A stretch of DNA of 64,000 bases from Nitrospirales bacterium (GTDB taxonomy: Bacteria; Nitrospirota; Nitrospiria; Nitrospirales; UBA8639), in NCBI GenBank assembly GCA_029261295.1, contig JAJDBP010000038.1, positions 1-64,000 of the forward strand. Direction: 5' to 3'. The number at the start of each line of letters is the position of its first letter. The stretch's first letter is position 1. Below are positions 957 to 42,996 of the stretch, in pieces. Both the position numbers and the translations under genes were made by a program. Under the pieces are notes generated by a model. That model was not told the DNA's origin. It saw only the letters and a list, made by a program, of their open reading frames with translations, and searched no databases.

Positions 957-1772
957 TTATTTAATCTCGAAATTGGCTTCAGCTGTCCCGCCATCAGCCA
1001 CTTCAACTTCCACGGTGATCGCCTTTTTCCCACGGGCTTGTTTGGCCACCGAAGGATGGAAAACGGCTACGGTATGCTTCCCTGCTGGCACATCCTTAAT
1101 TTCAAAGGTGCCATCAGCCCCTGATGTACCATAGTGTGGATTCGTCACAGGTAAATACCAGCCTTGCATGAACTCGTGTTGGTCACATTGTAACCGGAGA
1201 ACTGACCCTTTTTTTGCAAATTTCAATTTGACCTTCTTTGATAAAGAAGATCCTTTTTTGGCCAATCCAATATTAAACTCTGTGCTGGACTTGGCACCTA
1301 ATTGATCAAAGCTGTGTGGATTATGCAAAACCCCTTCTTTTGACTTCGGATCATCCGCATCGGCATCGTTATTTTCCACATAGAATTGGCCTTTGCTCAC
1401 AGCCACTCCCGTAAATGGTAAGAATTCGCAAAGCTCTGCCATAACCTTTTGTGCTGGTGCTTTGGCATAGCCCTTCATCCAAGCCTTATCTTTAATACTC
1501 GTTATGGCCACAACCGCATCCTTTAACCCTTTACTTCCATCGATTTGCACTTCCTTTAACAAACGAGTTTCCCCATCAGCACTTTTGCTCGTATTTTTTT
1601 TGCAAAAGTCCACGTTTGGGAATTTAGAGAATGCAAACTCCTTAGGTGGTGGCACTTTCCCAGTAAAGGTGACTTTTCCTTTAATGGTTCCACCAGCTTG
1701 GGCGACCAGCGGGGCAGCAAGCAACAATCCACCCATCAATAAAGACAAAGTTAGAGACTGACGATTCCTCAT
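957..1772 (-). CDS. Secreted cupredoxin-like protein with carboxypeptidase-regulatory-like domain
   Basis: The 271-residue product has a Sec signal peptide cut after ...VAQA (residue ~26). Residues ~27-210 hold a cupredoxin-type fold with likely type-1 copper ligands: a histidine in LHNPHSFD and the C-x2-H-x2-M cluster CDQHEFM. The last ~65 residues (GADGTFEIKDVPAGKHTVAVFHP) are a carboxypeptidase-regulatory-like beta sandwich. It should act in the periplasm as an electron carrier or copper-binding protein. The start is fixed by a strong GGAGGAAG upstream of ATG 1772. The same two-domain plan recurs at 6078-6992 and 6998-7918, so these are diverged paralogues. Own promoter (1919-1948) and own terminator indicate a monocistronic unit. 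The redox partner is unknown. Confidence 0.85.
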   Translation of the reverse strand: MRNRQSLTLSLLMGGLLLAAPLVAQAGGTIKGKVTFTGKVPPPKEFAFSKFPNVDFCKKNTSKSADGETRLLKEVQIDGSKGLKDAVVAITSIKDKAWMKGYAKAPAQKVMAELCEFLPFTGVAVSKGQFYVENNDADADDPKSKEGVLHNPHSFDQLGAKSSTEFNIGLAKKGSSLSKKVKLKFAKKGSVLRLQCDQHEFMQGWYLPVTNPHYGTSGADGTFEIKDVPAGKHTVAVFHPSVAKQARGKKAITVEVEVADGGTAEANFEIK

Positions 1773-2088: not shown

Positions 2089-3969
2089 TCAGAGAACAGT
2101 TTCCCTGAGTGCTTTTAATAACTCGTCTAACCGCCCCTTCAGCTCTTCAGCTTGATACACCGGGGCTAAACACATTTTGTCGGTACAGAGAAAGGCTGCA
2201 GGCTTTCCATCATAGGGAAAGACAATCTCACCCCACTTCATCGTCCCATTGTTAGGATTAAACTTTTTGACCATCTTGCCTGGGCAGTATAATTGATGAG
2301 CCTCAGCCAATAACACATTTGACTCCTCATCATCTGACATGCCAATCACCGCAATATGCACAGGTGGTCGAAACCATTCATCTACCGCCATACCGATTAA
2401 GGCAATGGGTAATGGCTGTGGGGTGTTCACGACCGACTGTAGCGTGCGCTCAGCCGTCAACCGATACTCATCCTGATTGGTGAGATGGAAAAGTTCCAAA
2501 TACAGTCTGGCAGCCTGAATATTTTCTCTTGCCGGTTTTGTGGGAATTTTCAACAAGCCCAAATTTTCAGGGGAATCTGGGCGATCAAAAAACCCACCGT
2601 CCTTATCATCCTCCAACAACAATTGGGTGCTCTGGGCTAGAGCTTCGCCATTCTGTAAAAATTGAATATCTCCCGTCACCCTAAAAGCCTCAAGCAAGGC
2701 CATGCCCAATCGAATGTGGTCTGATAAGATTCCGTGAAGTTTTCCAGAACTATTCACTTCTTCATGAGACAACCCCTTCTCAGGATCAAACCGCTCGGCC
2801 ACCATTCTGGTTAGGACCTGGATGGCTCTCTTTTTTAATATTGGCATTTCAAGTGCCTGTGCGGCATAAAGGTAGGCCCAAGTCATATCAGCATTGCTAC
2901 CTGTATAGATTCTCCCATCTACCAATGGCCTTCCTCTGGCCTTCCGATCTATCATATTCAAGGAAAAATATTTAGCTCCTGCAACAAGAGTCTGTCCGTC
3001 TTGGTCCCGCACATCAGCATCCTGGCTTTCAAAAAACTGGCCTGTTTGAGGATCAGCTAAAACCTTCTCCACAAAATCAATAATTCTCTTCGAAATATAT
3101 TTGTATTCGGCATTCCCTGTATACTGATATGCCGAAACATAGTTGTGAAGATTCTGGGCCTGAATGGTGAGCATTTTTTCAAAATGTGGCTGGCTCCAAT
3201 CCGCCTTTTCCGCATAGCGGTAAAATCCTCCCCACACAGGATCAAGCAAGGCCACTTGCCTCTCCAATGTCATCAGACCCATGTTGATCAATTCTTCATC
3301 ATTCTCAAAAAACCCATACCCGAGTGCCATTTGAATGGCTTCCGGCTCAAAAAATTTTGGATGATTACGGAATCCTCCATTCACTGAATCATACTCCCGT
3401 TTCATCATATCCACGCTATGACTAGCCATAGAAGAACGCAGTGGCGCACGAGGAGATTCATTCTTTTGTCCGTGCACTTTCACACGATCCCACAACTGAT
3501 CTGCTTGTTGCTGTAAATCTTCTTTTTCCGAGTCATAGAGCACTTTGGCTTCTTGAAGTAATTTGACCATGACCTCGGGTTCAAGAGAATTCGCTTGAAA
3601 AAGTATTTCTCCAGTGGGTAAGAGCAAGCTCGTTGTTGGCCACCCACCCGTTCGATAGCGCGCTTCTAGGTCAGGACGTTGATCAGTATCCACCCGAATC
3701 GCAATAAAATTTTCCTGTAATAATGTGAGAACCTGTTGGTCCGCATAGGTGGTCTGGTCCATAAGATGGCAAGCATGACACCACACGGCTGTCAGGTCTA
3801 AAAGAATAAGTTTGTCCTCTGCCTTGGCTCGCGCAAAGGCCGTTGAACCCCAATCAAGCCATTGAACATCCGATCCATGCCCCAGCTCAACCTGATGGGA
3901 AAATGCTGGTTGCTCCAGGCCGAGAAGGAGGGAAAATATACAAGAAAAAATAACCTGAAATTTCATCAT
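2089..3969 (-). CDS. Secreted thioredoxin-domain protein, DUF255/YyaL-like
   Basis: The 626-residue product has a signal peptide (residues ~1-24, ending PAFS) and a thioredoxin-like domain with the redox motif WCHACHLM at about residue 63. A long alpha-helical region resembling the six-hairpin (N-acylglucosamine 2-epimerase-like) toroid of the YyaL/spermatogenesis-associated 20 family follows, with SQDAD and ALEMPILKKRA segments. YyaL proteins are usually near 700 residues and cytosolic; this one is exported and somewhat shorter. A CxxC thioredoxin in the periplasm beside copper proteins suggests disulfide or copper-site maintenance, but this is inference. It is the last gene of a run of same-strand genes beginning at 7918. 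Two consecutive ATG codons start the frame and the Shine-Dalgarno is weak. Confidence 0.75.
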   Translation of the reverse strand: MMKFQVIFSCIFSLLLGLEQPAFSHQVELGHGSDVQWLDWGSTAFARAKAEDKLILLDLTAVWCHACHLMDQTTYADQQVLTLLQENFIAIRVDTDQRPDLEARYRTGGWPTTSLLLPTGEILFQANSLEPEVMVKLLQEAKVLYDSEKEDLQQQADQLWDRVKVHGQKNESPRAPLRSSMASHSVDMMKREYDSVNGGFRNHPKFFEPEAIQMALGYGFFENDEELINMGLMTLERQVALLDPVWGGFYRYAEKADWSQPHFEKMLTIQAQNLHNYVSAYQYTGNAEYKYISKRIIDFVEKVLADPQTGQFFESQDADVRDQDGQTLVAGAKYFSLNMIDRKARGRPLVDGRIYTGSNADMTWAYLYAAQALEMPILKKRAIQVLTRMVAERFDPEKGLSHEEVNSSGKLHGILSDHIRLGMALLEAFRVTGDIQFLQNGEALAQSTQLLLEDDKDGGFFDRPDSPENLGLLKIPTKPARENIQAARLYLELFHLTNQDEYRLTAERTLQSVVNTPQPLPIALIGMAVDEWFRPPVHIAVIGMSDDEESNVLLAEAHQLYCPGKMVKKFNPNNGTMKWGEIVFPYDGKPAAFLCTDKMCLAPVYQAEELKGRLDELLKALRETVL

Positions 3970-4021: not shown

Positions 4022-5383
4022 TTAGGTGCCTATTTTCGCATCCAAAAGTCGAACAAGAGCTGCCGCGGCAGTCACGCGAACAGCTGCATCACTGTCCCGA
4101 AGCGTTCTTTTCAAGATGGGTAATAAACTACGTTCCTCGATCCTCCCTAACGAACGAACAGCGGCAATCCTTGGGCGCGGCAATGGATCATTCAAAATTA
4201 TTGTTAATATGCCAATCACTTTTTGGCCTTTGCCATTACCTAAGGCTTTTGCAGTCCCTGATCGTATAGCAGGATTGGTATCTTGGAGAAGCTGATGCAC
4301 CGCATTTTCTACAACAGAGAACGGAGCACCTACGCGTAACAACGACGCGATTGCTGCCGCTTTTACACCAGGGTTCGTGTCAACCAAAGCTCGTTTCAGC
4401 GTTGCCAATACTTCATGTTGCTCAAAATACCCTAAACTTAAGGTGGCCACACTTCGCACAGCCGGAATTCGATCAAACACAGCAGATTTGATTGTCGGAA
4501 GCGTTTCTGAATTAGTCAATTTCCCCAAAGACGTTAAAGCGGCGGCACGTATAGATGGCTGTTTATCTCTAGCAGTTTTTTCCAAAATCGGGATAGCCCG
4601 CTTGTCTCCCAGTTCTCCAAAGGCACGAATAGCGGCGCCCCTCTCATATCCCTCTCGACTCTTAGCCCCTTCCTTTATTCGAGTCCAATGCTCTTTATGT
4701 CCCAATCCATATAGCGCCCGTGCAGCCGCAATTTGGACCAAAGCCTGTTCATCTTGTAATGACTTTTCTACTAACGTGGTTACCGCAGCATCACCTGATC
4801 TTCCTAAGCCAATAAGTACGGCTGCACGAACAAGACCCGCTCCATCTTTCAAAGCATTTCGAAATTTCGTGGACCGTTGCCCAGTCTTTCGTTTCCCTAA
4901 TGTTTCCGCAACCAAGGCACGAAGCATTCCCGATCCGTCAGTCAGGCCATCTTCCAAATATGGAACTACTTCCTCCGAATCAATTTCTTTGAGAGCGGTA
5001 TACGCAGCTCCCCGAATTTGTTCCCGCATATCAGTCCGTCTAGGTAAAATACTAGCAATTGCCATTTGTCGTAATAGCCCTTCATCTTCTCGTTGAGAAG
5101 ATTTCACCATGGACTCATAGGCATCCAAAGCATCCGGGACTTCCCCTAGTCGAGCTAAAGCCAAAATGTGAAGACGGGTTACACCAGCGGAGACTGGCGT
5201 TTTTTTTAAAAATGGCTGGAGACTATCAACCGTTTCTTGAAATTTCCCTTGGTCGTATGATTGCCGGGCTTTCTCAATGACGTCGTTCGTGGATTCCTGA
5301 GAAAACCCTACTTCTACGGAGACGATCCATAGGGATATAAAACTCAATATGAGGAAGCTACATTTGGTCATTCTTTTGTACAC
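4022..5383 (-). CDS. Exported HEAT-repeat protein with N-terminal TPR-like segment
   Basis: The 453-residue product has a signal peptide (hydrophobic residues ~8-27, cut after FSQ). A TPR-like pair follows (ARQSYDQGKFQETVDSLQPFL), then about nine HEAT/PBS-lyase-type repeats with the recurring pattern A-(A/V)-R-x-(S/A)-A-x2-(A/S)-L-G. Such repeats make a solenoid scaffold for protein-protein contacts; no catalytic motif is visible. GTG at 5383 is preferred over the ATG five codons in, because AGGAG lies 8-9 bases upstream of it. The gene lies 20 bp after the LolA-like gene and 52 bp before the thioredoxin gene, so co-transcription is likely. It may assemble the neighbouring copper proteins, but nothing in the sequence shows a specific partner. 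Confidence 0.75.
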   Translation of the reverse strand: MYKRMTKCSFLILSFISLWIVSVEVGFSQESTNDVIEKARQSYDQGKFQETVDSLQPFLKKTPVSAGVTRLHILALARLGEVPDALDAYESMVKSSQREDEGLLRQMAIASILPRRTDMREQIRGAAYTALKEIDSEEVVPYLEDGLTDGSGMLRALVAETLGKRKTGQRSTKFRNALKDGAGLVRAAVLIGLGRSGDAAVTTLVEKSLQDEQALVQIAAARALYGLGHKEHWTRIKEGAKSREGYERGAAIRAFGELGDKRAIPILEKTARDKQPSIRAAALTSLGKLTNSETLPTIKSAVFDRIPAVRSVATLSLGYFEQHEVLATLKRALVDTNPGVKAAAIASLLRVGAPFSVVENAVHQLLQDTNPAIRSGTAKALGNGKGQKVIGILTIILNDPLPRPRIAAVRSLGRIEERSLLPILKRTLRDSDAAVRVTAAAALVRLLDAKIGT

Positions 5384-5403: not shown

Positions 5404-6081
5404 TTACCCTCTAGGGATGAACGCTTCCTGAGCCTCAATCATCCTGTATCCTAATGGAGGATCAAAATAATAGTCCGGCTGTGTCGAAAGCACCACATGT
5501 CCATATTCTACGAACCAATCTCGGTCTTGACTGAGGAGTTTCAACAAAACGTTCCGATCTTGATCAACCCACTCGAAAAATCGTTCCGCTTGGCCAAATC
5601 GATCCTGAACTTCTAATTCATAAAGGACAGCAGGACGATCCCCTACCCGTGAATCCCCAATAAATGTCCGACGGGTTTCCCCTTCCAAGGTAACGGACAA
5701 TGGTAGCAAATAGTCAGATGTTAACGGAACGCTCACCACGATTCGACGTTGAGAGATCACGTACCAAAGCTTTTGTTGATCTAATCGAACTATCGTGACA
5801 CCAGCATATCCTAATTCTGTCTTGACTCCTCCCATATGTTCGATTCGATAACGATCATTTTTCACAAATAGCTGGGCTTTGGCCTTTCGCCCATCAATGT
5901 TCCAAACTAATCTGGCGGAAAATTCTATCGCCCTCGTACCGGACAAGCCACTTAGCTGAGCCAAGGCAGATCCCTGAGAAAAACAGGATATGGCCGTGAA
6001 GATAAGTCCGACCATGCAGAGACGACATAGCCTATTTGAAGGATTAACAGGATGTAGAAGAGAGAGAATTCTGCATCTCAT
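5404..6081 (-). CDS. Periplasmic LolA/outer-membrane-lipoprotein-sorting-like protein
   Basis: The 225-residue protein has a signal peptide (residues ~20-42, AMVGLIF-type core ending ALA). The beta-strand pattern is typical of LolA/LppX-like half-barrels: FSARLVWNIDG, KAQLFVKNDRYRIE, KLWYVISQRR, YELEVQDRF and FFEWVDQDRNVLLKL. It resembles the DUF4412/LolA-like group rather than canonical LolA. Its ATG overlaps the TGA of the preceding cupredoxin gene (ATGA, 6078-6081), so translation is probably coupled. A role in binding a lipid or a hydrophobic ligand is inferred from fold resemblance only. Confidence 0.65.
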   Translation of the reverse strand: MRCRILSLLHPVNPSNRLCRLCMVGLIFTAISCFSQGSALAQLSGLSGTRAIEFSARLVWNIDGRKAKAQLFVKNDRYRIEHMGGVKTELGYAGVTIVRLDQQKLWYVISQRRIVVSVPLTSDYLLPLSVTLEGETRRTFIGDSRVGDRPAVLYELEVQDRFGQAERFFEWVDQDRNVLLKLLSQDRDWFVEYGHVVLSTQPDYYFDPPLGYRMIEAQEAFIPRG

Positions 6082-6992
6082 GGCCTTTGGAGTTCAACCA
6101 AGGGCTCGATGTGAATAGGACGTCCTAACGCAGCTGGAGTGAACCTAGCGGGCTTTTGTCGAGTATGAGCTGTCCACCGCCCCACTGGTGAGTCTAGAGA
6201 AATGTTGACTTCTGTAGATTGGGAAGGCTTTATGGTCACCATCTGAATCTTTTCGTGTTTTACACCTGGATGCCAAGCCCGCAGACGGTAGGTCCCAGCT
6301 GGAATATCCGAAATTTCATAAGTTCCGGCTTCATTTGTAAACGTGTAATAGGGGTTATCCACTGCAATGGCCCAGCTTTCCATATAGGCATGGAATCCAC
6401 ACTGCATGACAAATGTATCTCGACCCTTAGTCATTTGAAATTGGTGAACCATGGACTTCCCTGGCCTATGTTTATGCGTCGCATGGATATTCCCTCGATG
6501 ATGCTTTTGGTTATAGGGAAGGGGAGAATTAAATAAAACTCTTGTCCCATGGGTTATCGAGGTTTCATAGGCTTGAATATCGTGCATGACCGGGTCCATA
6601 TTGACAACTTCAATGCCATGTTCACTGCGAACGACGGTAGTAAATGGGAGAAATTGGCAATCTCTCGCTTCAATTTTTGGGATTGATAATGAAAAGGGCT
6701 TCCCTGCTGTCACTCCTTCCAACACCATGACCACACCTTGAAGATAGTTATCATCATTCACAGCAAAGTCTTTTAGTAGACGCCAGCCCTTTCCGTCAGA
6801 AATTCGCCCACAGTATTCAGGATCCGGGAAGGTAATAAGATTATACGCTTTCGGTGATGGAGCAAGCCCTTTTAAGCTCACGGTTCCCTGTAGGGCTCCC
6901 CCCGCTTCGACCACAGCCACGTCATAGGCCAGAACTATTGGGGGAGCAAATAGAATCCCAGAAACCATTAGAATCAAAATCCAACGGTACAT
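6078..6992 (-). CDS. Secreted cupredoxin-like protein, tandem paralogue B
   Basis: The 304-residue protein has a signal peptide (residues ~1-22). The cupredoxin-like domain carries a candidate copper site: histidine in DPVMHDIQAYET and the C-x2-H-x2-M cluster CGFHAYM. A carboxypeptidase-regulatory-like domain (EISDIPAGTYRLRAWHPG) follows, then a basic tail. It also has CGRIS and DCQFLPF cysteines shared with its neighbour. It is clearly paralogous to the gene at 6998-7918, five bases upstream, and more distantly to that at 957-1772. The four-base overlap with the LolA-like gene and the short gaps indicate one operon. Likely role: periplasmic copper binding or electron transfer. Confidence 0.85.
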   Translation of the reverse strand: MYRWILILMVSGILFAPPIVLAYDVAVVEAGGALQGTVSLKGLAPSPKAYNLITFPDPEYCGRISDGKGWRLLKDFAVNDDNYLQGVVMVLEGVTAGKPFSLSIPKIEARDCQFLPFTTVVRSEHGIEVVNMDPVMHDIQAYETSITHGTRVLFNSPLPYNQKHHRGNIHATHKHRPGKSMVHQFQMTKGRDTFVMQCGFHAYMESWAIAVDNPYYTFTNEAGTYEISDIPAGTYRLRAWHPGVKHEKIQMVTIKPSQSTEVNISLDSPVGRWTAHTRQKPARFTPAALGRPIHIEPLVELQRP

Positions 6993-6997: not shown

Positions 6998-7918
6998 TTA
7001 TGGCACCTGATGACGAAGTGAAGGAATTATTTCTTCACCCTCATCAAGTAACTCTTTCCCGAAACGAGGGTTATCATGCATTTCATGAGCACTGCGCCGC
7101 CCTTTTGGCGATTCATACTGGAAACTCACCTTCGATGTTTTCCCGGATTCAATCTGAATTTTTTGTTCCAAGTATATTTTCATTCCAGGGTGCCAAACAA
7201 CAACTTCATACTCACCTGGTGGAATATCTGAGATTTCGAAGGCCCCATCTTCTTTTGTAATGAAATAATAAGGATTATCCAATACCAATCCCCAAGAAAA
7301 CATATACGGGTGAAATCCGCATTGCATGACGAAAATATTTCGGTTTTTCCGAAGATGAATATTCTCTACCATTGGCTTCCCAGGCATGTGGGTATGGACA
7401 TGTTCTCCAAACATCCCCATGACCTTATGAAAGGGGTTCATTGGCAATGGCCGGTTAAATAATATTCGGGCACCACGTTCGCGAGCAGTTTCATATCCTT
7501 GAATATCATGCTCAATGGGGTCCATATTAATGACCGTCAATTCATCTCGATCTTTAATGACATTCACAAAAGGTGAAAAATCACAATCAATGGCTTCAAC
7601 TTCTACCTTAGGAAGATCAAATGGTTTGCCTTTCTTCACATTTTTCAATAGGACAACCGCATCTTTTAAGGTTCCACCTGGGCCGACAAGAAAATCCTCA
7701 ACAATTCGCCACCCTGTCCCCGTTGAGATCCTTCCACAATACACCGCATCAGGTATGGTGACCAAATTCATGGCCATGGGACGGGGTTTCCCGCCTAATA
7801 GCGTCACTGTTCCTCTAATCGATCCCCCATTTTTGACAACCATTCCCTGATAGGACCAACCATTCGATACGGCAAGAACACTTATGAACAAACTCCAGAA
7901 TACAACCCGCAGAATCAT
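6998..7918 (-). CDS. Secreted cupredoxin-like protein, tandem paralogue A
   Basis: The 306-residue protein has a signal peptide (residues ~1-22, ending GWS-YQ). A cupredoxin-like domain has candidate ligands in DPIEHDIQGYET and CGFHPYM, and a carboxypeptidase-regulatory-like domain (EISDIPPGEYEVVVWHPGM) follows. A histidine-rich stretch (GEHVHTHMPGK) lies between the ligand motifs. A very strong AAGGAGG precedes ATG 7918. It is the first gene of the minus-strand run reaching 2089 and follows the multicopper oxidase terminator. A weak AGTACA/TAGTAT promoter-like pair in the short gap could drive it. Function as a copper or electron carrier is inferred from ligand spacing. Confidence 0.85.
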   Translation of the reverse strand: MILRVVFWSLFISVLAVSNGWSYQGMVVKNGGSIRGTVTLLGGKPRPMAMNLVTIPDAVYCGRISTGTGWRIVEDFLVGPGGTLKDAVVLLKNVKKGKPFDLPKVEVEAIDCDFSPFVNVIKDRDELTVINMDPIEHDIQGYETARERGARILFNRPLPMNPFHKVMGMFGEHVHTHMPGKPMVENIHLRKNRNIFVMQCGFHPYMFSWGLVLDNPYYFITKEDGAFEISDIPPGEYEVVVWHPGMKIYLEQKIQIESGKTSKVSFQYESPKGRRSAHEMHDNPRFGKELLDEGEEIIPSLRHQVP

Positions 7919-8078: not shown

Positions 8079-11000
8079 TTATTTAAACGCGACAGGTGCG
8101 ATTTGCCCTTGGTCAGAATTATCGACTTTGGCTTCTTTCATTCCAGGTGCACCACCATGTAACGGCAATACCCGTTGATCATTAGTCGGTAACACTCGGA
8201 AATAGCCCCATTGCCCAGATTGGGAATAGGGAAGCCGTTGATTGCTATACACATAATCAGCCGCCATGTGATACGGCCCACCAGCAGCCGGTATGAAGGC
8301 ATCAATTCCTTCAGAACCAGCAAACTCTACGACACTGATTTCATCCGCTCCTTGCATAAATGGCTCAATTGGCCATTCATGTTTTTCGACACTGAACATG
8401 CCATTTTGTTCATTGTTCGCGCCAAATACATGAATTCGAACAGGATCACCCGCGTGCGCTAGGATAAGAGGAGTCACCGGATCTTTTGGATCATCCACCT
8501 CACACGGTTGGAACATTCGACCCAACGTACATCCTGCTTCTTCACGGTAAGGATAGGGTTCGGCTCTGTAGTTAATGCCAATCAAACCTGCGACATTTTG
8601 GACATAAGGCATAAAACTCGTCCCGATGATGTTGTCCTCCTCCTGGAAGTACAAGGCAACATCTCGGTAGTTTTGACGCATCTCATTCCCTTGGATCGTC
8701 CGATCTACGATCACATCAGCAGCCCAACTATTTTTCAAGGAAATATCGGCTCCAGTTTTCGGATCACGGTACTGAGAACCTTTTGGTCCAATGATCACAC
8801 CACCAAACAGGCCATTTCGAATATTCATAGCCGGATTACCAAAGTCCCAGACTAAGGATTGGGTCTCTCCAATATACGGATCCGCATAATAGGTATAGGT
8901 ACGGCTTTCCCCAGGCGCCACAGTTTGATCACCTGGATTGTTGCCGATATTCGCACCTTGCGAATCTTTTGGATCAAACGCCAAGCTGAAAGCTGAGAAT
9001 GACGCCCGGCTTTCTTTCATCTTATTCGTCAGGTTAACTTTAAGACAATCACCCACGTTTGCCCGAATCGTGAGGGGCATGGGATGGAAGTCTCCAGACG
9101 CCTTACTAATCTCATCTTCTAAGACATAGATTTTGGCATCGGGGTTTTGGATTTCAATTTTCCGTTCAAAGTCCACCTCAATCGCTTCTTCAATATTGGG
9201 GTTGAAGGTCATTGATGGAAAATCAATTGCTGCTACATTAAACGATTTGACTGGAGCATCTGCTGGACAAACCGGTAATGATTTCTTAATACCTGGACCA
9301 CCAACAGCTGCGTTAGGCAACAATTGCAGATCTGGCACTTTCTTATCCAACACTCTGATGAGGCCCCATGACCCTTCAGAGAATTTTGAACTTCTTCCAT
9401 TAAAGTACATGTAATCCCCCGCTTGGAGACGAGGACCACCGGCTTGGGGTACAACTAAGTCATACCGCTCAGCAATACCAATATGAATGGAATTTTTTCT
9501 ATTGGCATCACCTGCATACCGTTCCGTCAAGAAATTATGGCCGGAAACAGTAAAGACATTACTTTCGTTCATCGTTACGTCAACTAAACGAAAGACAATC
9601 GCATCTCCAAGATAGGCACGAACCGTGGTCGTACTGGGGTCACCATGTGCGGCACTACTGAAGATTTGCGATGTATCTGGATTATTTGCTAAACGCTGTG
9701 CAAAAGGTTCCGCTCTAAAATTTATGGCGCCACCTGTCGTATGGGTTCCCCCATTCAAGAACGGCATTGGCGTCATTTTAATCAGGTCGTTCGGGGGCAT
9801 AATAAAGGACACTGTTCGTCCCGCTTCCAGAGCTACATCAATCGGTTGGCCAGGAGGATTCCCAGCTGTCACCACATTGACCGTGTGTGGAACCGTATCC
9901 ATGATTTGAACCATCAATTCACGGAAGCTTCCGGCAATTCCATACCCGACAGGTTCATTCGTATGAATGTCCATCACCGGTCCAGTCCGTTGCGGTTCTC
10001 CCGTTACCGGGTTGTGATAGGTTGAACCAAATGGTTCGATTAAGAATGTACAGACCGCGCCATGAGGCCAAGTCGTTCCACCAAAAGCATGGTCATGACA
10101 AAAGACCGATCCAACATCGGCATCAGCCCAAAACCGTTGCCTGACAAACTCAACCGTCGTGATATCCCCGACAGGATGATTATGTTCTAACGGCTGTTCA
10201 AACGTGAGTGTATTTTCACCTGATGAAGCTGCCGGGGCAGAATCAGCTGCTCCCACTCCAGGAACTTTCAATTTCTGTCCAACAAAGATCAGGTTTTCAT
10301 TATTCAACCCATTCAAGTCTTGTAAAGAACCAACTGATGTCCCAAAGGAACTGGCGATCTTTCCTAAGGTATCCCCTGGGGTCACGGTATAGTCATTACT
10401 TCCTTCCAATGAGGCTGTAGAAGCACCACTACCGCCAATGGCGACAATACGCTTGATTTCCCAGCCCTTCACATTATCGGCTCCAACCAAAAGGACCGTT
10501 CCCACATGATACTGCTTGGCATTGGTCACTTCGATTGTCCGGTCTCCCTTTCGAGCGGCCTTCGTAAACTTGGCATTCATTGGAACGGGAAGGCCTTTAT
10601 CTGATTTCTTTTCAAACATCGTGAACGGACGAACTGATTGTTCGTAGGAGAAACCAGAAATCACGCCGTCCGAAGCTTGATTATCAAATTGGACAAAATG
10701 AAAGTGAGTATTAATCTTTGATGATTGAAAATTCGTAATGTCATCATCTTCCCATTCACTAGTCAAAATCCAATCCATGCAATCATAGATATTTGCACGA
10801 AAAACTAAAGGCACTTTCAAATCATTATTGGCCCGAATGGCTTCTTCTTCATCATGCACAACGTAGAGAAGGCCATTCGGATCTACTACGGCTGGTTGAT
10901 CACCTTCGGCAGCCGATAGTTCAATCGGCAATTTAATAAAATGGACATTATATTCCTGTGAACCCGCCCGATCTGGGCAAAGGCTCCAGCGGCCATTTTC

Positions 11001-13214
11001 ACCAGGCTTCGCTGGTTTGACAGAAGTTGTTCCTACATCATTCATATGAATCATTTCCAACCAAGGGGCAGGATTTCTATCAGGAGAAAACGGATTCCGT
11101 TTTCCAAAATGCGGCGTTAACCATGGCCACGCCACTTTCCCAGTCGTTGGTTCAAACCAAATTGGCCTACGTTCACCGGCTTTATAGCCTTGCCATTCGG
11201 GAGTATACTTTGGATTTTCACCCGCAGTGGCTTCTTTCTCACTTACAGCCATATTGCCATCCCAAGCCCAGTCGACCACCGTCGCATCGTAGGATTTGAG
11301 TTGTTCAACATAATCATCTTTATGACCTGGCTTACCACGAGTCGGCAATTGCATTTCCACCCAATCATAAATCGTCGCGATGGCAGGATCAGACTTCCAG
11401 TTGGATTTGCCCTTTTCAATGATTTTGAATTTTTTACCAAACCAATCTACTGTCGTACCAATTAGCTTATCTGATGTCACAGGATTTGGGATCCGTCCAA
11501 TCCGATCAGGCAACTCTCTCATTGGAGCCATGACATCGTTTTTAAAACCTTCAACCTGCATCGTGTTGTAAACACGCCAGTATCCCCACATTCCTGCGAC
11601 ATAATGATGGGCAACATGACAATGGAACAAAAAGTCCCCAGCTAAATATTGACAAAGACCTGAGCCACATTCGGTTTCTAAATCTACGGCTTCTGAGGGT
11701 CCAATGACTTCCACATCAACACGATCTGACTTTGCCCGAATCACAGGAAACTTTTGAGGCCCTTGGCCTTCATGCCACATGGGCATTTGGTCCACTGCTC
11801 TTGGACTACGCGCCCAGCGAATGGAGCCACCATGTGGATGATGGGAATGGAAAACTTCAGATCCACCATGAACCAACCTGAACTTGGCTGGATCACCTAA
11901 ATAGCTCCGTGGAATCGTCGTTGAAGCATCACCAAAGGTGTAAGAGCTATAGGCCATCGATTCATCTTCAAAGCCAAAATATTCATGCTGCACATGCATG
12001 TTATCGATGCCGAATGGCTCACTTCGATAATTCAACGCCCGTGCACCCGGTCGATACGCATCAGTTAAAGGATCCCGTTGCGGCAAGAAGTCGCCATGTT
12101 TATTCACTGGACGGAAAGCCTCATCACCAACTTCGTGATAAATCAACACAAATTCCCGAAAATCTGGGCCGGTACCATTTTTGATAATCGCTTGCCATCC
12201 ACTGGCCATCTTAGGAGCGGGTCCGGTCCCTAGGGGATCTAAAAATTCAGAGCCTTGTGGTTCAACCACAAACACCCCAAACAAGCCCATCACCGTCAAT
12301 TCCCTATCGTTACTGTAGCTATGAAATTGTCGTCCACCTTCTTGCGTGGCCGGATGGATATACCACTCCATTTCGATGACAGGAGATCCTTTAGGTGCAT
12401 CCTCATCATCCTCTTCGGCAACACCCACGGCAATGGAATCCAAATTCGTGGTCGTAGCTGGTTTCCCAGTTTTACTCATCACCATGCTTGACCCATGAAT
12501 ATGCAGGCTGACTTCTTCTCCAAATTCCAAGGCATTCCTAAGTGTAAATTTGACACAATCGCCTTGATTACCTCGGACGACCAAAGGTTGAATCCATTGA
12601 TCTTGGATGCCGTTTTTTACGCCACCTGGATCATGATGTCCTTCTGATTCCCTGGCTTCCGCATTTTTGGCTTCTTCTTCACGAACCTTTTCAAGGTTTT
12701 CTGTCAGGGTATACATATACCCAGGATAGTAATCCAACCATTGATTTAGAGTAATTTCCACGTTAATGGCTGAAATATCGTAATGACGAACTGGAGCGGT
12801 TTTGGGGCACAGACCGCCGCCCTTCATCGCCACGGGCTCCCCTTCTGATTCAGAGGCCAACAAATAGTTGCCCTTCCCAGCACCATATTGGTGCATGGTG
12901 GACATATCGTTATACATGCCTTCACTCGGGGTACCGGCGGTTTCTGTCTCAATTTGCTGCATCATTTTTTCATGTTGTTTTTCAACAAGAGCTGCACGCT
13001 CAGCGCGACCCTCAACAGCATTCTCGATAATAGTTTGCCCTTTGAGCTTTTCAGCCCAAGCTGGCGTGTCCTGATGAGTCATTCCAGTTTTGTGCATCAT
13101 GGCTTCTTGAGATTCCCCGGCCAAGAGAGTCCCAGCGGAAATCAGCGAAATCCCTCCCAGAAATAATCCAAGGGAAAGCGACGTAACGGCATTCCTAGTT
13201 TTCACATAAAACAT
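8079..13214 (-). CDS. Giant secreted multicopper oxidase with inserted LysM domain
   Basis: The 1711-residue protein has a signal peptide (residues ~1-32, ending LLAG). The first ~550 residues form a complete multicopper-oxidase unit: HIHG (238-241), FHSYS (~297), HSHHPHGG (456-463) and HCHVAHH-x4-M (531-542), matching type 1, 2 and 3 copper ligands. A second cupredoxin set follows (HFHFVQFD ~837; FCHDHAFGG ~1038 and PHG ~1050), split by a LysM domain (~941-986, [13 protein letters not shown]). Residues ~1300-1700 keep cupredoxin-like strand patterns but have lost most histidine ligands. Usual family length is 450-700, so this is two to three units joined. LysM implies peptidoglycan or glycan attachment. 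Strong GGAGG before ATG 13214. A role in metal (for example Mn or Cu) oxidation or in respiratory copper chemistry is inference. Confidence 0.88.
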
Positions 13215-16319: not shown

Positions 16320-16814
16320 TTACTTAGTCAAGATTAAGAGCGTGCCGCCTAAATGAGCACCATGCAATTGACAGGAATACTTTAAAACACTGTTGGCAGT
16401 AACGTAGGTAAGATCGCTGATAGGAATACCAATATATTGTGTTTTCCCTGGTGCGACCGTCGTTTTAATATGCATTGACGTTGGAGCAGCATACTTTGAA
16501 TCGGCCGACAACTCAAAACCATGCTCTGCCTTTGTATTGTTGGTAATTTTGATCAGAACGGGACGGAAAGCACGACCACCTGTCCCTCCAGCTACAAGAT
16601 TTAAAACAGATGTCGGTGGATAAATGACTTTTTTCCCACCGATTTCCATGATGGTATACTCAAGATCGACATCTAACGTGTTAAAGTTGATGCCCGAAAC
16701 CCGACCTGTTTCAAGGTCGCCATAAGCCACGCCACCTGACTGCAACGCCCAGGCAGAAGAACCTGCTGCAATTAACACCGCACTTAAAAGGACGGATAGA
16801 AGCACTTTGTGCAT
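16320..16814 (-). CDS. Secreted small cupredoxin
   Basis: The 164-residue product has a signal peptide (hydrophobic core to ...SSAWA, residue ~24). The cupredoxin fold carries a histidine in KAEHGFELSAD and the cluster C-Q-L-H-G-A-H near the C-terminus (C-x2-H). A methionine axial ligand in the usual place is not evident, since H-L-G-G follows, so the copper site may be atypical. ATG 16814 is chosen because GGAGG lies six bases upstream; an upstream in-frame start would add 17 residues without a Shine-Dalgarno. It is a likely periplasmic electron carrier or copper-binding protein, in keeping with the copper proteins at 1-13 kb. Confidence 0.8.
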   Translation of the reverse strand: MHKVLLSVLLSAVLIAAGSSAWALQSGGVAYGDLETGRVSGINFNTLDVDLEYTIMEIGGKKVIYPPTSVLNLVAGGTGGRAFRPVLIKITNNTKAEHGFELSADSKYAAPTSMHIKTTVAPGKTQYIGIPISDLTYVTANSVLKYSCQLHGAHLGGTLLILTK

Positions 16815-17173
16815 CGCCCACCTCCTCATGAGAAGCTTGTTGATAATAAAGAATTTACCTAACAACGCAAGTGAATTTTCTTATTAATGCAAATATACCC
16901 ATTAGATTCGTTCAAAAGAGAAAGGTTTTATAGCATATGGCATTCTATGAAGCAAGGAGGTTTTCACCTGAATCTTGACTCTGATAATGAATTTTTTTGA
17001 ATTCCCTATAAATTCGAATGATTGCTTACGAGAAAGATTAATTACCCTAGGTTATTGTAACTAAATTAGGGTTTTATTTTTGGTGTAAAATAGCCATGAC
17101 TTTTAAGATAGAATATCCTTACATACCGCAAATGGCCCAATTCATTCTAAACCACCTATTTCTGAACGACATA
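16815..17173. other. AT-rich intergenic region
   Basis: About 360 bp between two minus-strand genes. It contains an imperfect inverted repeat (ACCCTA at ~17044 with TAGGGT at ~17067, and a nested GTTA-TTG-TAAC). It must hold the promoter of the small cupredoxin gene, but I cannot assign one with confidence. No open frame is credible. Confidence 0.3.
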
Positions 17174-29386: not shown

Positions 29387-30340
29387 CTATCGAAAGGCAC
29401 CTTGACGATACAACCGCCAAAACGTCGTGATCCCAGCCCAAATCGGATGTTTCCGTTGCGCCGGAGTTAATTCAACTTTCACCCCGGAATGCCGCTCAAT
29501 TTTCCAAATGAGATAATCGGCTCCACCTTGGAACGTATAGGCCGCCTTCATAAGCCGCAAAATCGACAAGACCTTCCCTTGCACTTTCCGAACAATCCAG
29601 GCTATTCGATTTTTTGTCTTGTTCCATCCGGAAGGTTCTCTCTCATAGAGAGAATAATCGTTCTGCTTAATGACCTTTACCTTTGGGAAATCCGCCGAAA
29701 ACGCTGCATCGGCGACTTGTTCATAATAGGATTGATTACTTTCCCATAATGTTGCAATTCGCCCTTTCGATTCAGCACGTAATTCCGCGCCATAGCTGAG
29801 TGCCAAACCCGTCGCCCATATCTCTTTTGCTGAAAATTTGGCTGGCATTTGCGGAACGACGTTTCCCAAAAAGGTAACCACTGCGTTCCCCAATCCTGAG
29901 ATAATTCGTTGGCTCATTGCTTGGCTCGGGAATGCCATGACAGCTGTGGGCTGGGCAAAGCGCCCCCAAAAGTAGGAATGAAACCATTGAGGAGTCACAC
30001 TTCGCTCAAAATCTTCTAGCGACAAAACCGCATATTTCATACGAACCTTGTGGTCTCCAACAGCAACCTCTCCGTAGAACACATTAGGAGGGAGCCACCC
30101 ATTAAGACGGGCCAGCCAAGTTGACGGATACACGGCCGCATATTGATCCACAATGACATAACAGTCCACCAGACCATTGAGATCCGTGCCCTCTCGCAAA
30201 CACGAACCATAAAGTAAAATTCCTTGAACGGCCTGACCGTATTTATTGGCGAGAAAATTCCCGGCGGCCTGAATAGGGGGAGGAATAGGTTGCGCACTCG
30301 ACTGACTGACGATCGCTAAGACTTCTTCAGAAAGAGCCAT
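29387..30340 (-). CDS. Tam41-like nucleotidyltransferase (CDP-lipid synthase candidate)
   Basis: The 317-residue protein resembles mitochondrial Tam41-type CDP-diacylglycerol synthases: a nucleotidyltransferase GILLYGSCLREG near residue 40 followed by LVDCYVIVD. It also has W..LN......VFYGEV, KYAVLSLEDFERSV and SYFWGRFAQP in the family's order. Bacterial members are often labelled phosphatidate cytidylyltransferase but are unrelated to CdsA. Here it follows a DAG/ceramide-kinase-like gene by two bases, so the pair could phosphorylate a lipid and activate it with CTP. The natural substrate may be phosphatidate or ceramide 1-phosphate. No membrane helix is obvious. The end abuts repeat copy B exactly. 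Confidence 0.65.
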   Translation of the reverse strand: MALSEEVLAIVSQSSAQPIPPPIQAAGNFLANKYGQAVQGILLYGSCLREGTDLNGLVDCYVIVDQYAAVYPSTWLARLNGWLPPNVFYGEVAVGDHKVRMKYAVLSLEDFERSVTPQWFHSYFWGRFAQPTAVMAFPSQAMSQRIISGLGNAVVTFLGNVVPQMPAKFSAKEIWATGLALSYGAELRAESKGRIATLWESNQSYYEQVADAAFSADFPKVKVIKQNDYSLYEREPSGWNKTKNRIAWIVRKVQGKVLSILRLMKAAYTFQGGADYLIWKIERHSGVKVELTPAQRKHPIWAGITTFWRLYRQGAFR

Positions 30341-30342
30341 GA

Positions 30343-31308
30343 CTATTCAGCCTTTAGCCGCACAAAGGAAAGCTCCCCAGGAGAATCGAGGATCAAAGGT
30401 TCATCCGGCTTGGAAGATGTATACACTTCGCCATCTAAAACGAAGCCACTGTCAAAACCCAAGCGTATTTCAGCGTGGTTTTCACTCACATACCCATGAG
30501 CCTCCGTTGCAAGAGAATGCCCAGTGCCACGAAGTATGGCTGGCAAGACCCGCCATAAATATCGATACGGAACGCGAAGGCTGGTAAATCGCAAGGGGCC
30601 AGATTGATTGCCCCAAAATGGCTTCATGCCAAGAAACAAACGATTCAGGGTGGTGACTATGAGCACTAAATACTCATCCTGTGTAGAATTCGCATCTCCC
30701 GTCTTAATAGAAGCTTTAATAGGGTTTAATCCTTTTCGCGACCCTGTTGCCAGCGCCAATAGGAATTTCAACAAAATCAGGCCAGCACCCCACTCCCCTA
30801 ACCGTCCAATTGATTGTTTGGTTTGAAGGCCCATTTGTGTCCCATGGTAAATGGCCCCAGCTCCGAAAAACATCCCGCATAAAGGTTCCCGCTCCTCGGG
30901 AAAACGAATACGAAGAATTGGTCGAGAGACGATAGCAAGTTTCGAAGGAGACGATTCGGCCTCCTCAAGAAATTGTCCAAGGACCTTTGCCTCAAAATTC
31001 CCTAACCCCACATCCCCAGCCATTAAATTCGCTGTCCCTGCAGGTAATAGTGCCAAACTCGGCATTGAGGAAAATGGGTAATGATGAAACAAGGCGCCCA
31101 TGACGGCCTGTATCGTCCCATCGCCTCCATTCACCGCCACACAATCCACTTGAACTTGGGAAAACTTCTTTAAGGCCTCCAGAATGTCTGCAGGCGTTTG
31201 AACCTCAGCACTCGGCACATGGGGATACTGAGAAAGTATGTTTTGGAAAAGATTCGGGTTCCGCCGATTACGACCACTCAGGGGATTATGAAGAATTCCT
31301 ACACGCAT
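30343..31308 (-). CDS. Diacylglycerol/ceramide kinase family protein
   Basis: The 321-residue DAGK-catalytic-domain protein has VNGGDGT near residue 60, PAGTANLMAGD near 90, and a C-terminal beta sandwich with FVLDGEVY. The N-terminal HNPLSGRNRRN matches the family start. Members phosphorylate diacylglycerol, sphingosine or ceramide with ATP; Caulobacter ceramide kinase (CpgB) belongs to this family and is encoded in its sphingolipid locus. Given the ceramide genes here, ceramide is the likely substrate, though this is inference from context. It lies two bases upstream of the Tam41-like gene and is clearly co-translated with it. Confidence 0.75.
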   Translation of the reverse strand: MRVGILHNPLSGRNRRNPNLFQNILSQYPHVPSAEVQTPADILEALKKFSQVQVDCVAVNGGDGTIQAVMGALFHHYPFSSMPSLALLPAGTANLMAGDVGLGNFEAKVLGQFLEEAESSPSKLAIVSRPILRIRFPEEREPLCGMFFGAGAIYHGTQMGLQTKQSIGRLGEWGAGLILLKFLLALATGSRKGLNPIKASIKTGDANSTQDEYLVLIVTTLNRLFLGMKPFWGNQSGPLRFTSLRVPYRYLWRVLPAILRGTGHSLATEAHGYVSENHAEIRLGFDSGFVLDGEVYTSSKPDEPLILDSPGELSFVRLKAE

Positions 31309-31385
31309 GAATGGTCTGGTTCATGAAAACTCAAAAGAGTGCTTTCCCCAATAACTCTCTTCTCTTGATCATTCTAAATATCTTC

Positions 31386-31805
31386 CTAAAAATGCACGAA
31401 AAAGTAATCACTCTTCTTACCTTCATCGATCATATCTACTCTAATGTTCAACAATGTATCTAAAGCGAGATCAAACTGATTTTTGTCCCAATTGAATGTG
31501 GGTTCAATTTTTTCGAATAACTCCTCAGGAGAAAGAATTATTTTATCAATGCTTATAAGACGGTTATCTCGAATAAAACCAACCAAGGCAAGAGTATCTT
31601 CAATATTTGAAAATTTTTGAACTGTCCATTCAATCTCTTGGATTTCCTCCTCTGCCTCATAGTATTCCTCCCCATCATCCGGCCACCCAATTACCGCCCT
31701 TATGGTCGTCTCAGATTCAGCTAAAATGGTAAACCTATTTATTTCAAACAAGATAATAAACTGAAACAGTTGGATCACTGGTGTTGTAAAGAAATTTTGT
31801 CCCAT
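31386..31805 (-). CDS. Hypothetical acidic protein
   Basis: The 139-residue product starts at ATG 31805, which has a GGAAGGAAG just upstream; a TTG five codons earlier is less likely. It is acidic and moderately hydrophobic, with a cluster of E/Y residues (DDGEEYYEAEEEIQEIEW) and no motif, signal or helix that I recognise. It lies between the CDP-alcohol phosphatidyltransferase and the kinase genes on the same strand with gaps of 62 and 77 bp, so it may be co-transcribed with the lipid genes or be a later insertion. Confidence 0.5.
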   Translation of the reverse strand: MGQNFFTTPVIQLFQFIILFEINRFTILAESETTIRAVIGWPDDGEEYYEAEEEIQEIEWTVQKFSNIEDTLALVGFIRDNRLISIDKIILSPEELFEKIEPTFNWDKNQFDLALDTLLNIRVDMIDEGKKSDYFFVHF

Positions 31806-31867
31806 TCTTCCTTCCTTCAAAACTCACTCTTACGTCAAAAAATGATAGAAATTAAGGCGGGAATGAC

Positions 31868-33076
31868 TTATTTAATGGTAGCCGGGGGGTTAGTGAACAC
31901 TTGTACGGCTAAGGAGTCTCGGCCATTCACCGGATCAATTTCGGCCAACCATGAGGTGAGCGATCCTTTTCTGATCTTTTCTACCGCAGCCATCGCTAAT
32001 CTTCCTAAGAGGATCACTGTTGAAAGTATCGTCCAGATGGCTACGGCTTCCAACCCTAGATCTGGTCGCCCCATCAATATACTGGCCGTGAGAAAAATGA
32101 TACACGGATTTCTCCGTGCGGTGATAAGGCGAAAGTAGGAATCAAAAGGCTTCCAACAAAAAATCACGAATCCCGCCAACCACCATTGGAAAATACCCTC
32201 GACAATTCGGCCTAAGATATACCCGATGACAATGACCCAGCAGGTCGTGGTTAAGGTCAAATCTAACAAGACCGGCGAAAAGGAGACGAGGCCCACGCCC
32301 CATGCCAAATACCAGAGTGGAGGATGGATCAAATCGATTCCATGATCAAAAATATTTCCCAACTTCGTTGAAGTGACCGTGACTCTCGCTAATTTTCCAT
32401 CGACTGTATCCAAAAATGTCATCACCCACCCACAGGCAAGACCAAGAGCAAAGTAGCCATAGCTGAATAACATCCCTGCGAGAATCACTAAGGCTAAACT
32501 TAAAGAAGTCACCTGATTGGGTGAAATCCCAGCCATCGCGCACAATCGGGTGGCCCATTGAGCCGGAACTGGCCACCAGAACTTTGTCACGAAATCCGTC
32601 ACACTTTTATAGGATCCAGAAAATAAATGTTGCTCCAAACGCGGTCGGTTGTCCTCACGAATAGGAAAGACATAAGGCAAGTCAGTTTTTCGCAATTCAT
32701 TAGAAAAGGACCCCGAAATATCGTTCATACTGACTCTTCTGACGCTTGGGATGTCGGCAAACTGCTCTGTCTGCATAGTCTCCGAAACAGAACTCGCCTC
32801 TAATGCCGTCACATGCGCCACAACAGGCACAGCACGTCCGCCCATCTCCATTCCCAACATGACATTCTTTTCATTCGACAAACTACGAAACACTCGTTCG
32901 TCATAAATACAGTCTCCGCGAATGATGAGAACGGAACTCTCGGTAGGAATACCCTCTAGTTCGGACACAAACTGATAGTTGCCTATTCGATCCAACATTC
33001 GTCCTAATCGCTCTCGAGAAGTCAAATTCCACAAACGAATATCCGACTCATGACAGATAGACCAATACATACTCAT
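31868..33076 (-). CDS. CDP-alcohol phosphatidyltransferase with N-terminal degenerate nucleotidyltransferase domain
   Basis: The 402-residue protein has, from about residue 165 on, a polytopic CDP-alcohol phosphatidyltransferase domain with the full D-x2-D-G-x2-A-R-x8-G-x3-D-x3-D motif (DTVDGKLAR...FDHGID). Residues ~1-160 resemble the second half of a sugar/inositol-type nucleotidyltransferase (VLIIRGDCIYDERVF, then a central sheet) but the N-terminal G-x-G-x-R loop is missing, so that half is probably inactive. The plan recalls bifunctional IPCT/DIPPS enzymes of thermophiles. It should join an alcohol phosphate or CDP-alcohol to a lipid in the inner membrane. It follows lptG by 53 bp. Confidence 0.8.
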   Translation of the reverse strand: MSMYWSICHESDIRLWNLTSRERLGRMLDRIGNYQFVSELEGIPTESSVLIIRGDCIYDERVFRSLSNEKNVMLGMEMGGRAVPVVAHVTALEASSVSETMQTEQFADIPSVRRVSMNDISGSFSNELRKTDLPYVFPIREDNRPRLEQHLFSGSYKSVTDFVTKFWWPVPAQWATRLCAMAGISPNQVTSLSLALVILAGMLFSYGYFALGLACGWVMTFLDTVDGKLARVTVTSTKLGNIFDHGIDLIHPPLWYLAWGVGLVSFSPVLLDLTLTTTCWVIVIGYILGRIVEGIFQWWLAGFVIFCWKPFDSYFRLITARRNPCIIFLTASILMGRPDLGLEAVAIWTILSTVILLGRLAMAAVEKIRKGSLTSWLAEIDPVNGRDSLAVQVFTNPPATIK

Positions 33077-33129
33077 ACAGCAAATAGGCGCCCATCAAAA
33101 TCATGAATGAACATCATCTCTTTTACCCT

Positions 33130-34206
33130 CTACGAAAAGTACATCCACCAAATGATGGCCGTCACCAACACGATTCCGGAGAAGGGAATCATGGTGGTCA
33201 TAAAAGCCGTGGCGCCTAATAAAATTCCTAAATTCTGCAATATTTCTGTGGTGAGATAATACCCAATCCCAACCAAGCCCCCTAAGGCGATCCTCTTTCC
33301 AGCCGACGCACTTCGTAAGGGCCCGAATGCAAAAGGCAAGGCGAGGAGGATCATCAATCCTGTTTTCAATGGCATAAACACCTTATCCCAGAAGGCTAAT
33401 TCATATCTTAGGACATTTTGATTCTTCTGCTGGAGGATTTTAATATAACGAAAAAGGTCAGAAGGGGCGAGAGAAGAAGCCGGCAATGTTAATAACCGCA
33501 TTTCTTCTCGTTTAAAGGGGGAATCCCATACGATACGCTCGACTGCTTCATTTGAAACACGAGGTCCATTGATCACTTTCTTTTGAATATTTTTCAGAAT
33601 CCATTTTTGAGGATTCTCCACGTCAGCTTCTTCGACATACATATACGTGATCATCTCGCCCTTCTGATTGAATTCGAATATATCGATACCTTGGGGAATT
33701 TCTCCATATTTCAATGTCTTGATACGTATATACCGATTCTTCTCTCGAAACCACAGCCCCTGTTTGCCTTGATAGACTTGTGAATCAGATAGCGCCAAGG
33801 AACGTGAAATATGGGCGTACTGATCTAACGTTGGCGTGACATATTCTTCAAAACACGCCACCAGCACCATAAAGACGATTCCCACTTGCATGACCGCCCA
33901 TGCGATCTGGTAATGAGAAATTCCTCCGGCCTGCATGGCCAAAAGTTCTCTGCCATTTGCTAGGCCACCCAAGGCCATAATACTTCCTAACAACGCAATG
34001 AACGGCGCTAGCACCACAAATCGATCTGGCAGGGTCAGGAGCACGAATTCCCCTGCGGCCCAAAAGGTATAACGACCATTCCCAACTTCATCCACTTCTT
34101 CTACAAAGACAAATAAGCTAAACACGGCCAAAAGGATGGCCAAGACGGGCAAATAACCCTTAAGCAAACTTCCCCAAAGATATCGATAAATAATAGGGAT
34201 GCCCAT
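33130..34206 (-). CDS. lptG: LptG-type YjgP/YjgQ permease
   Basis: The 358-residue protein has N-terminal helices, a periplasmic jellyroll-like middle (about residues 125-260) and C-terminal helices, the LptF/LptG plan. ELLAMQAGGISHYQIAW is the cytoplasmic coupling-helix region typical of the family. In LPS export LptF and LptG form the ABC transporter core with LptB2. It lies ten bases after lptF and ahead of the lipid head-group genes, so it may serve a different glycolipid or sphingolipid. Whether this is the cell's only lptFG pair cannot be told from the window. Confidence 0.85.
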   Translation of the reverse strand: MGIPIIYRYLWGSLLKGYLPVLAILLAVFSLFVFVEEVDEVGNGRYTFWAAGEFVLLTLPDRFVVLAPFIALLGSIMALGGLANGRELLAMQAGGISHYQIAWAVMQVGIVFMVLVACFEEYVTPTLDQYAHISRSLALSDSQVYQGKQGLWFREKNRYIRIKTLKYGEIPQGIDIFEFNQKGEMITYMYVEEADVENPQKWILKNIQKKVINGPRVSNEAVERIVWDSPFKREEMRLLTLPASSLAPSDLFRYIKILQQKNQNVLRYELAFWDKVFMPLKTGLMILLALPFAFGPLRSASAGKRIALGGLVGIGYYLTTEILQNLGILLGATAFMTTMIPFSGIVLVTAIIWWMYFS

Positions 34207-34216
34207 ACGTGAGAGC

Positions 34217-35275: not shown

Positions 35276-35290
35276 CCTTCTCCAAACACC

Positions 35291-35320
35291 TTTACATTTG
35301 CTAGACCCGATGGTACTAAT
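35291..35320 (+). promoter_or_regulatory. Candidate promoter giving a leaderless mRNA
   Basis: TTTACA (35291-35296) and ACTAAT (35315-35320) with 18-base spacing stand six bases ahead of ATG 35327. No Shine-Dalgarno is present. Confidence 0.35.
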
Positions 35321-35326
35321 CTTTTC

Positions 35327-36055: not shown

Positions 36056-36130
36056 CCTTCCTTGCCAACCCCGTTTTTCCCGCACGACCTTTTCAACACT
36101 AATTTCTAAAATTTTTCCTTATTTTTAGCC

Positions 36131-38100: not shown

Positions 38101-38186
38101 CGGAACGCTGAATCAAACACAAGAAAATTCACATGTAGAGAGTTGGCAGTGCAAAGAAGACGATGACAAACGACCCTCATCTGCCC

Positions 38187-38921: not shown

Positions 38922-39004
38922 CCTATCACCACCCTCTTGTTCAATTGATTATGGAACTAAATCCTAACAGTCCTGCTATTTTTTCACGGACAATGACAAG
39001 ATTG

Positions 39005-39033
39005 ATTATAGAAACCTCCGGAAGAAGCCACAA
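39005..39033 (-). promoter_or_regulatory. Candidate sigma-70 promoter of the hydroxylase-bCerS operon
   Basis: A perfect TATAAT (39005-39010, minus) with TTGTGG (39028-39033) 17 bases upstream lies about 84 bp before GTG 38921. The rest of the 349-bp gap 38922-39270 holds a TATAAA-like box close to the HIT gene at about 39259 and nothing else I can name. Confidence 0.5.
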
Positions 39034-39270
39034 GAAAAACAACTTCGATCCCAACATTGGAAATCGGTCTTATGACCTGGTGAACCCAATCCCATGAGGA
39101 ACATATTTCAATACAGCAACCTTACCAAATGATCATGTTGGCACAAGATTCTGAGACAGAGACACGGGTATAATCTGAGTTGATGGTAAAATGGTTATAA
39201 CCTGAACGAATTAGCACGTCAGTGTTTCCTCATAGACACAAGAATCACTATTTCGGTATAAAATTATTCC

Positions 39271-39705: not shown

Positions 39706-39855
39706 AATTGATCAATAAAATATGTATGGTTTTTCAAGACTTTATGTTGCCAAATAGACTCAATTTGTGTTCTTTTTGAGACATATTATGAGGTCAAATT
39801 TACAAACTTTTTAGCCCTACGCTCACATTTATTGAGATTATTTAACAATTTACGC

Positions 39856-42994: not shown

Positions 42995-42996
42995 AT

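Follow-up and report, generated by a model that had tools for sequence, protein, structure and literature searches.

The window analysed here is a stretch of 64,000 nucleotides (nt) from a Nitrospirales bacterium (assembly GCA_029261295.1, contig JAJDBP010000038.1, positions 1 to 64,000). Positions 8079-13214 on its minus strand form a single intact open reading frame (ORF) of 1711 amino acids (aa), which encodes a multicopper oxidase with a LysM domain inside it. Its features are listed below; copper ligands are assigned to type 1, 2 and 3 sites (T1, T2, T3), and the basis of each entry is given in brackets.

8079..13214, minus strand: multicopper oxidase of six domains enclosing a LysM, 1711 aa (ORF, Pfam and MnxG match)
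13116..13214, minus strand: hydrophobic N-terminus, probably a Sec signal peptide (residues 1-33), without lipobox cysteine (read from translation)
12210..12812, minus strand: cupredoxin domain 1, about residues 135-335, with a degenerate, non-conserved HxH at 238/240 (conservation, MnxG profile)
11505..12197, minus strand: cupredoxin domain 2, about residues 340-570, predicted T1 copper and one half of the ligands of the trinuclear site (MnxG match, conservation)
11832..11849, minus strand: HxxHxH, H456/H459/H461, T1, T2 and T3 by laccase analogy (invariant in 70/70 rows)
11589..11624, minus strand: HCHxxxHxxxxM, H531-C532-H533, H537 and M542 (invariant in 70/70 rows; aligned to two-domain laccases and MnxG)
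9939..10994, minus strand: cupredoxin domain 3, which contains the LysM insert, about residues 741-1092 (MnxG profile alignment)
10698..10706, minus strand: HxH, H837/H839, other half of the predicted trinuclear site (invariant in 70/70 rows; aligned to MnxG HIH)
10260..10391, minus strand: LysM domain, residues 942-985, with Gly/Ser/Ala linkers on both sides, at a beta-hairpin turn (Pfam, alignment, model, dN/dS)
10062..10097, minus strand: HxH...HG, H1040/H1042/H1051, other half of the predicted trinuclear site (invariant in 70/70 rows; aligned to MnxG HDH)
9285..9938, minus strand: cupredoxin-like domain 4, no copper motif (motif listing, MnxG profile)
8640..9284, minus strand: cupredoxin-like domain 5, lacking copper motifs, with a Pfam Cu-oxidase_3 match at 1382-1478 (Pfam, motif listing)
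8145..8639, minus strand: cupredoxin-like domain 6, lacking copper motifs (boundary set visually, guided by the internal repeat)

A preliminary description of this locus, made from the sequence alone, had called the protein a multicopper oxidase of 1711 residues containing LysM and had suggested comparison with Mn-oxidising multicopper oxidases. These points were borne out by the intact ORF, a Pfam match to PF07732 (29 bits, cut-off 21; the multicopper-oxidase domains scored weaker than LysM) and a match of the whole protein to the solved structure of MnxG (PDB 9bxa, E = 8e-72). The oxidase profile was collinear with MnxG domains 1-6 (profile and phmmer). MnxG of Bacillus sp. PL-12 has the same six cupredoxin domains in order, with the T1 motif in domain 2 and the trinuclear motifs in domains 2 and 3, but is only 1227 residues long and shows no LysM match. 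By eye we found three internal repeats, unit A at 135-570, unit B at 741-1310 and unit C at 1311-1690. In each, an odd domain that starts with a stretch similar to CPxxA is paired with an even domain that has one similar to xYRxEPF or xFRxEPF. The protein is not two to three times the normal size, as had been stated: most intact relatives have about 1600-1750 aa, and six-domain bacterial oxidases range from 1217 to 2681 aa (PMC3600357).

Among the residues of the oxidase we found one ligand set for four coppers, comprising H456, H459, H461, H531, C532, H533, H537 and M542 in domain 2 and H837, H839, H1040 and H1042 in domain 3. All 12 were identical in every row of a 70-row alignment, in which 27 rows carried LysM (the window gene twice, the second time as L001) and 43 did not. 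The HIH and HDH motifs of MnxG aligned with H837/H839 and H1040/H1042, and its HCH region with residues 531-542. The residues were assigned to copper types by the laccase motif pattern, and these roles are therefore putative. Judged by this conservation, the motifs of domains 2 and 3 are complementary halves of one predicted copper site. We observed the ligands, their invariance and the collinearity with MnxG, and from these we infer site geometry, copper content and catalysis.

The preliminary description had instead seen two copper sets, a whole type 1/2/3 set close to the N-terminus and an incomplete one interrupted by LysM. An HxH at 238/240 does precede the domain 2 motifs in the window protein, but position 240 is N in 22 of the 27 LysM rows; in the 43 rows without LysM it is H 22 times, N 11 times and Q 10 times. 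The partner motif is H-S-Y instead of HxH. Because 238/240 is unconserved while the domain 3 motifs are invariant and aligned with MnxG, the two supposed sets are halves of one; an arrangement of one complete and one partial set is scarcely credible, and two independent copper sites were ruled out by the conservation across the 70 rows. Past residue 1042 the motif listing contained no HxH or HCH, in agreement with the earlier view that the C-terminal cupredoxins have lost their ligands. We hold the six-domain, one-site anatomy to be highly probable. A separate observation concerns two cysteines on either side of HDH (FCHDH...AVC, window 10062-10097) in the LysM-type clade; W and G take their places in most of the other paralogues shown. 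They may form an extra disulfide adjoining the trinuclear site.

Predicted structures were obtained for residues 131-1310 (32 sequences, mean predicted local distance difference test score (pLDDT) 48.8) and 331-1092 (52 sequences, 49.3), and only the LysM fold and its flanking strands were used from them. The best Foldseek match was again 9bxa ('Mnx H340A'; E = 4e-23, 1146 columns), a result secondary to the sequence comparison given the poor query model. Counted on the printed alignment, residue 340 of 9bxa lies opposite H537, the predicted type 1 histidine.

The LysM domain reached 60.9 bits with PF01476, whose curated cut-off is 20.9, and scored highest among the eight LysM stretches of the whole genome; a chance match was ruled out by this score and by the distribution among genomes. 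It does not lie between cupredoxin units, as had been described, but within domain 3, between HxH 837/839 and HxH 1040/1042, at a spot where relatives without LysM have a short hairpin turn. In the predicted model it is flanked by strands 919-926 and 1002-1005 and adopts a beta-alpha-alpha-beta fold at pLDDT 73-80. Placing LysM inside a catalytic domain, between the halves of a copper site, seems an unusual way of anchoring an enzyme. Compared with the two closest relatives, the LysM core had nonsynonymous rates (dN) of 0.046 and 0.057 and synonymous rates (dS) of 0.96 and 0.73 (dN/dS 0.05-0.08), while dN of the N-terminal linker was 0.45 and 0.80, and the dN/dS of the linkers, where it could be calculated, was about 0.5 or higher. 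Over the 90 of 325 pairs that allowed an estimate, the median dN/dS was 0.14 for the core and 0.04 for the rest of the protein, with synonymous sites near saturation in these wider comparisons. The LysM core is under purifying selection.

A match running through LysM was found in 30 of 235 genomes of the order, all belonging to one family (f1; 30/48 genomes against 0/187 others), and in a phylum-wide sample the LysM form was found at E <= 1e-15 in 14/16 genomes of f1 and 0/229 others. Family f1 is probably UBA8639, or lineage IV, described as marine or saline and partly sponge-associated (PMC12342949). Within f1 the LysM form occurred in 5/20 genomes of the window's genus and 25/28 of the remaining genomes. 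The window's own genome encodes a paralogue without LysM (C9:55688-60562; 77-78% identical, query residues 929-1000 missing), and two relatives (L056 and L069) have an oxidase without LysM at the same locus, the neighbourhood being shared as far as the contigs reach. Both retain two extra residues at the hairpin turn, which fits a loss of LysM. In a midpoint-rooted FastTree phylogeny all 26 LysM tips fell into one clade of 37 tips (support 0.95) that also held 11 tips without LysM. We read this tree as suggesting one gain and at least two losses, with several gains or gene conversion as possible alternatives.

The paralogue and the two LysM-less syntenic loci could also mean that LysM is carried along neutrally in a tolerant loop and has lost peptidoglycan binding. 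This seems rather improbable, as the core keeps canonical residues and a low dN/dS while the linkers drift, has the top LysM score of its genome and persists in most of the family outside the window's genus. Moreover, in two single-contig genomes (G029 and G035) the LysM form is the sole match to the window oxidase. We consider a LysM tether to the wall likely, in support of the peptidoglycan anchoring put forward earlier. Position, distribution and purifying selection of LysM are what we observed; binding to peptidoglycan and retention at the periplasmic wall are what we infer. Since the peptidoglycan of diderms lies in the periplasm, such a tether is expected there, and the outer-surface location first suggested was rejected as the default. 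The published family is likewise called periplasmic (PMC3578206). LysM has also been used to anchor passenger proteins on the surface of Bacillus thuringiensis (PMC2754439, in which laccase is mentioned 17 times), but that system is man-made, Gram-positive and apparently does not have LysM inside a catalytic domain.

Several observations connect the oxidase with nitrite oxidisers. Its close relatives were found in Nitrospirales metagenome genomes, with 96% identity to OFTM42 and OFTM334. At the edge of another contig of the same genome (G000:C2) lies an apparently NxrB-like ORF, scoring below the TIGR03478 cut-off. Two relatives (L106 and L107) have an NxrA-like ORF of about 1160 aa adjoining an NxrB-like ORF, and in L105 and L106 a LysM-less oxidase paralogue and a blue-copper-like partner gene lie between or beside nxr-like copies. 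This is in accord with the report of an MnxG-like periplasmic oxidase in the NXR cluster of N. gracilis and N. defluvii, together with electron carriers (PMC3578206). From position and MnxG similarity, the window oxidase probably belongs to that family: both are MnxG-like and from nitrite oxidisers, and homologues of the window oxidase in relatives adjoin nxr-like genes, but the window copy has the LysM insert and sits in a separate cluster. The six-domain bacterial multicopper blue proteins likewise have T1 in domain 2 and the trinuclear site between domains 2 and 3; the available parts of that paper mention no LysM (PMC3600357). The oxidase family, the six-domain plan and the copper-site placement are thus already published, and LysM in such an oxidase appears to be the new element. 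A search of the open-access PMC literature, with subscription papers outside its scope, returned no LysM multicopper oxidase in the text available; the single paper matching all three search terms (PMC10367259) has no LysM in its main text. The open-access literature on Nitrospira oxidases, as far as available, contained no functional study of the window protein.

The gene order around the oxidase was conserved among relatives as gltB-gltD ... oxidase, partner, partner, unknown, HEAT, thioredoxin-like. In the window the neighbours are as follows.

16320..16865, minus strand: small cupredoxin-like protein, C-x2-H-x2-H (no Met ligand), conserved upstream in LysM-bearing loci (neighbourhood, motif)
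6998..7918, minus strand: partner 1, secreted, C-x2-H-x2-M (blue-copper-like) and CarboxypepD_reg domain (Pfam, neighbourhood, motif)
6078..6992, minus strand: partner 2, 43% identical to partner 1 and its paralogue (Pfam, neighbourhood, motif)
5404..6081, minus strand: conserved neighbour, secreted, no Pfam family (Pfam, neighbourhood)
4022..5383, minus strand: conserved neighbour, HEAT-repeat protein (Pfam, neighbourhood)
2089..3969, minus strand: conserved neighbour, Thioredox_DsbH (DUF255) protein with CxxC (Pfam, neighbourhood)
957..1772, minus strand: third blue-copper-like protein of the cluster (neighbourhood, motif)

Downstream sequence of at least 1300 nt was available for 52 oxidase genes. 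In 50 of them a gene of the 6998, 6078 or 957 type lay directly downstream; the exceptions were L068 and, in L063, one of its two oxidase genes. The C-x2-H-x2-M motif was present in 79/82 relatives of the two main partner types and in 18/20 of the 957 type, and its spacing resembles that of amicyanin. The label 'blue copper' is taken from this motif itself, because a PDB profile search with the partner family found only CarboxypepD-like domains and no cupredoxin structure. From the gene order, the blue-copper-like partner is most likely an electron or copper partner of the oxidase. In the main rival to our reading, such partners would pass electrons from NXR or cytochromes to the oxidase, which would drain them to O2 like a valve, with no metal being oxidised. 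The nearly constant downstream gene, the paralogues beside nxr-like copies in L105 and L106 and the published NXR-cluster position with electron carriers (PMC3578206) speak for it. On the other hand, draining electrons in the periplasm would squander energy in an organism that gains little from nitrite oxidation, and the copper site of the partner is known as a motif, the partner profile matching CarboxypepD-like but no cupredoxin structures. We regard this explanation as unlikely. The electron sink named as an option in the preliminary description is still conceivable.

Weighing all of this, we read the protein as a periplasmic six-domain multicopper oxidase of nitrite-oxidising Nitrospirales that is tethered to the wall by LysM, with a probability of roughly 0.6. 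Electrons from the substrate would enter at the single type 1 copper of domain 2 and travel by way of the C532/H531/H533 bridge to a trinuclear cluster between domains 2 and 3, where O2 would be reduced to water, with domains 1, 4, 5 and 6 as a copper-free scaffold. LysM, inserted with flexible linkers into a hairpin at the surface of domain 3, would bind peptidoglycan and keep the oxidase at the periplasmic wall. As substrate we tentatively propose a metal ion of low valence (Mn(II), Fe(II) or Cu(I)), with a protective role for the enzyme.

Several findings weigh against this reading. LysM domains can also bind other polymers of N-acetylglucosamine. No NXR-like ORF was recognised by eye among the listed window ORFs, so the LysM-bearing copy stands outside an NXR cluster. 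The LysM form seems dispensable in the window's own genus, because it was not found in 15/20 genomes, several of them fragmented assemblies that can hide copies (G006, for example, has a 96% fragment that stops short of LysM). Neither AlphaFold model resolved domain 2, probably because the alignments were shallow (mean column identity 74% and 73%), and the models therefore do not show the geometry of the copper site. Finally, the oxidase scored 115.2 bits with the NCBIfam MnxG equivalog NF041487, far below the cut-off of 3100; Mn oxidation can thus not be transferred by name, and naming the protein MnxG was ruled out. This last result also bears on a manganese-specific form of our reading, a Mn(II) oxidase whose Mn(III) would protect against reactive oxygen, with LysM holding Mn(III) production at the wall. 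MnxG also works together with small partner subunits. It is nevertheless the closest solved relative, and formation of Mn(III) against reactive oxygen was proposed for the Nitrospina/Nitrospira oxidase, as a speculation of that paper (PMC3578206). We consider the manganese-specific form doubtful.

Nitrospira are major nitrite oxidisers, and for the large copper oxidases of their periplasm we found no role that has been proven. Copies with and without LysM in one cell, and LysM-less copies at the same locus in relatives, offer a natural comparison for the site of action of the enzyme and for the importance of its location. A bolder and improbable idea is that in marine Nitrospira of lineage IV the NXR-cluster oxidase became a station fixed to the wall in the periplasm, which reduces O2 with nitrite electrons delivered by blue-copper shuttles. 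If true, this would be a second, non-membrane outlet for respiratory electrons, retained even in reduced sponge symbionts.

Elsewhere in the window, positions 29387-44205 hold a probable bacterial sphingolipid (ceramide) cluster in this Nitrospirales genome. Its serine palmitoyltransferase scored 626 bits against an NCBIfam cut-off of 500, and the cluster further encodes a fatty acyl-AMP ligase, an NAD-dependent epimerase, a fatty-acid hydroxylase, a diacylglycerol-kinase-like protein and a CDP-alcohol phosphatidyltransferase. A 379-aa protein of this cluster without Pfam match resembles bacterial ceramide synthase. Adjoining the serine palmitoyltransferase, positions 44292-46730 encode an 812-aa fusion protein with a Mito_fiss_Elm1 domain.

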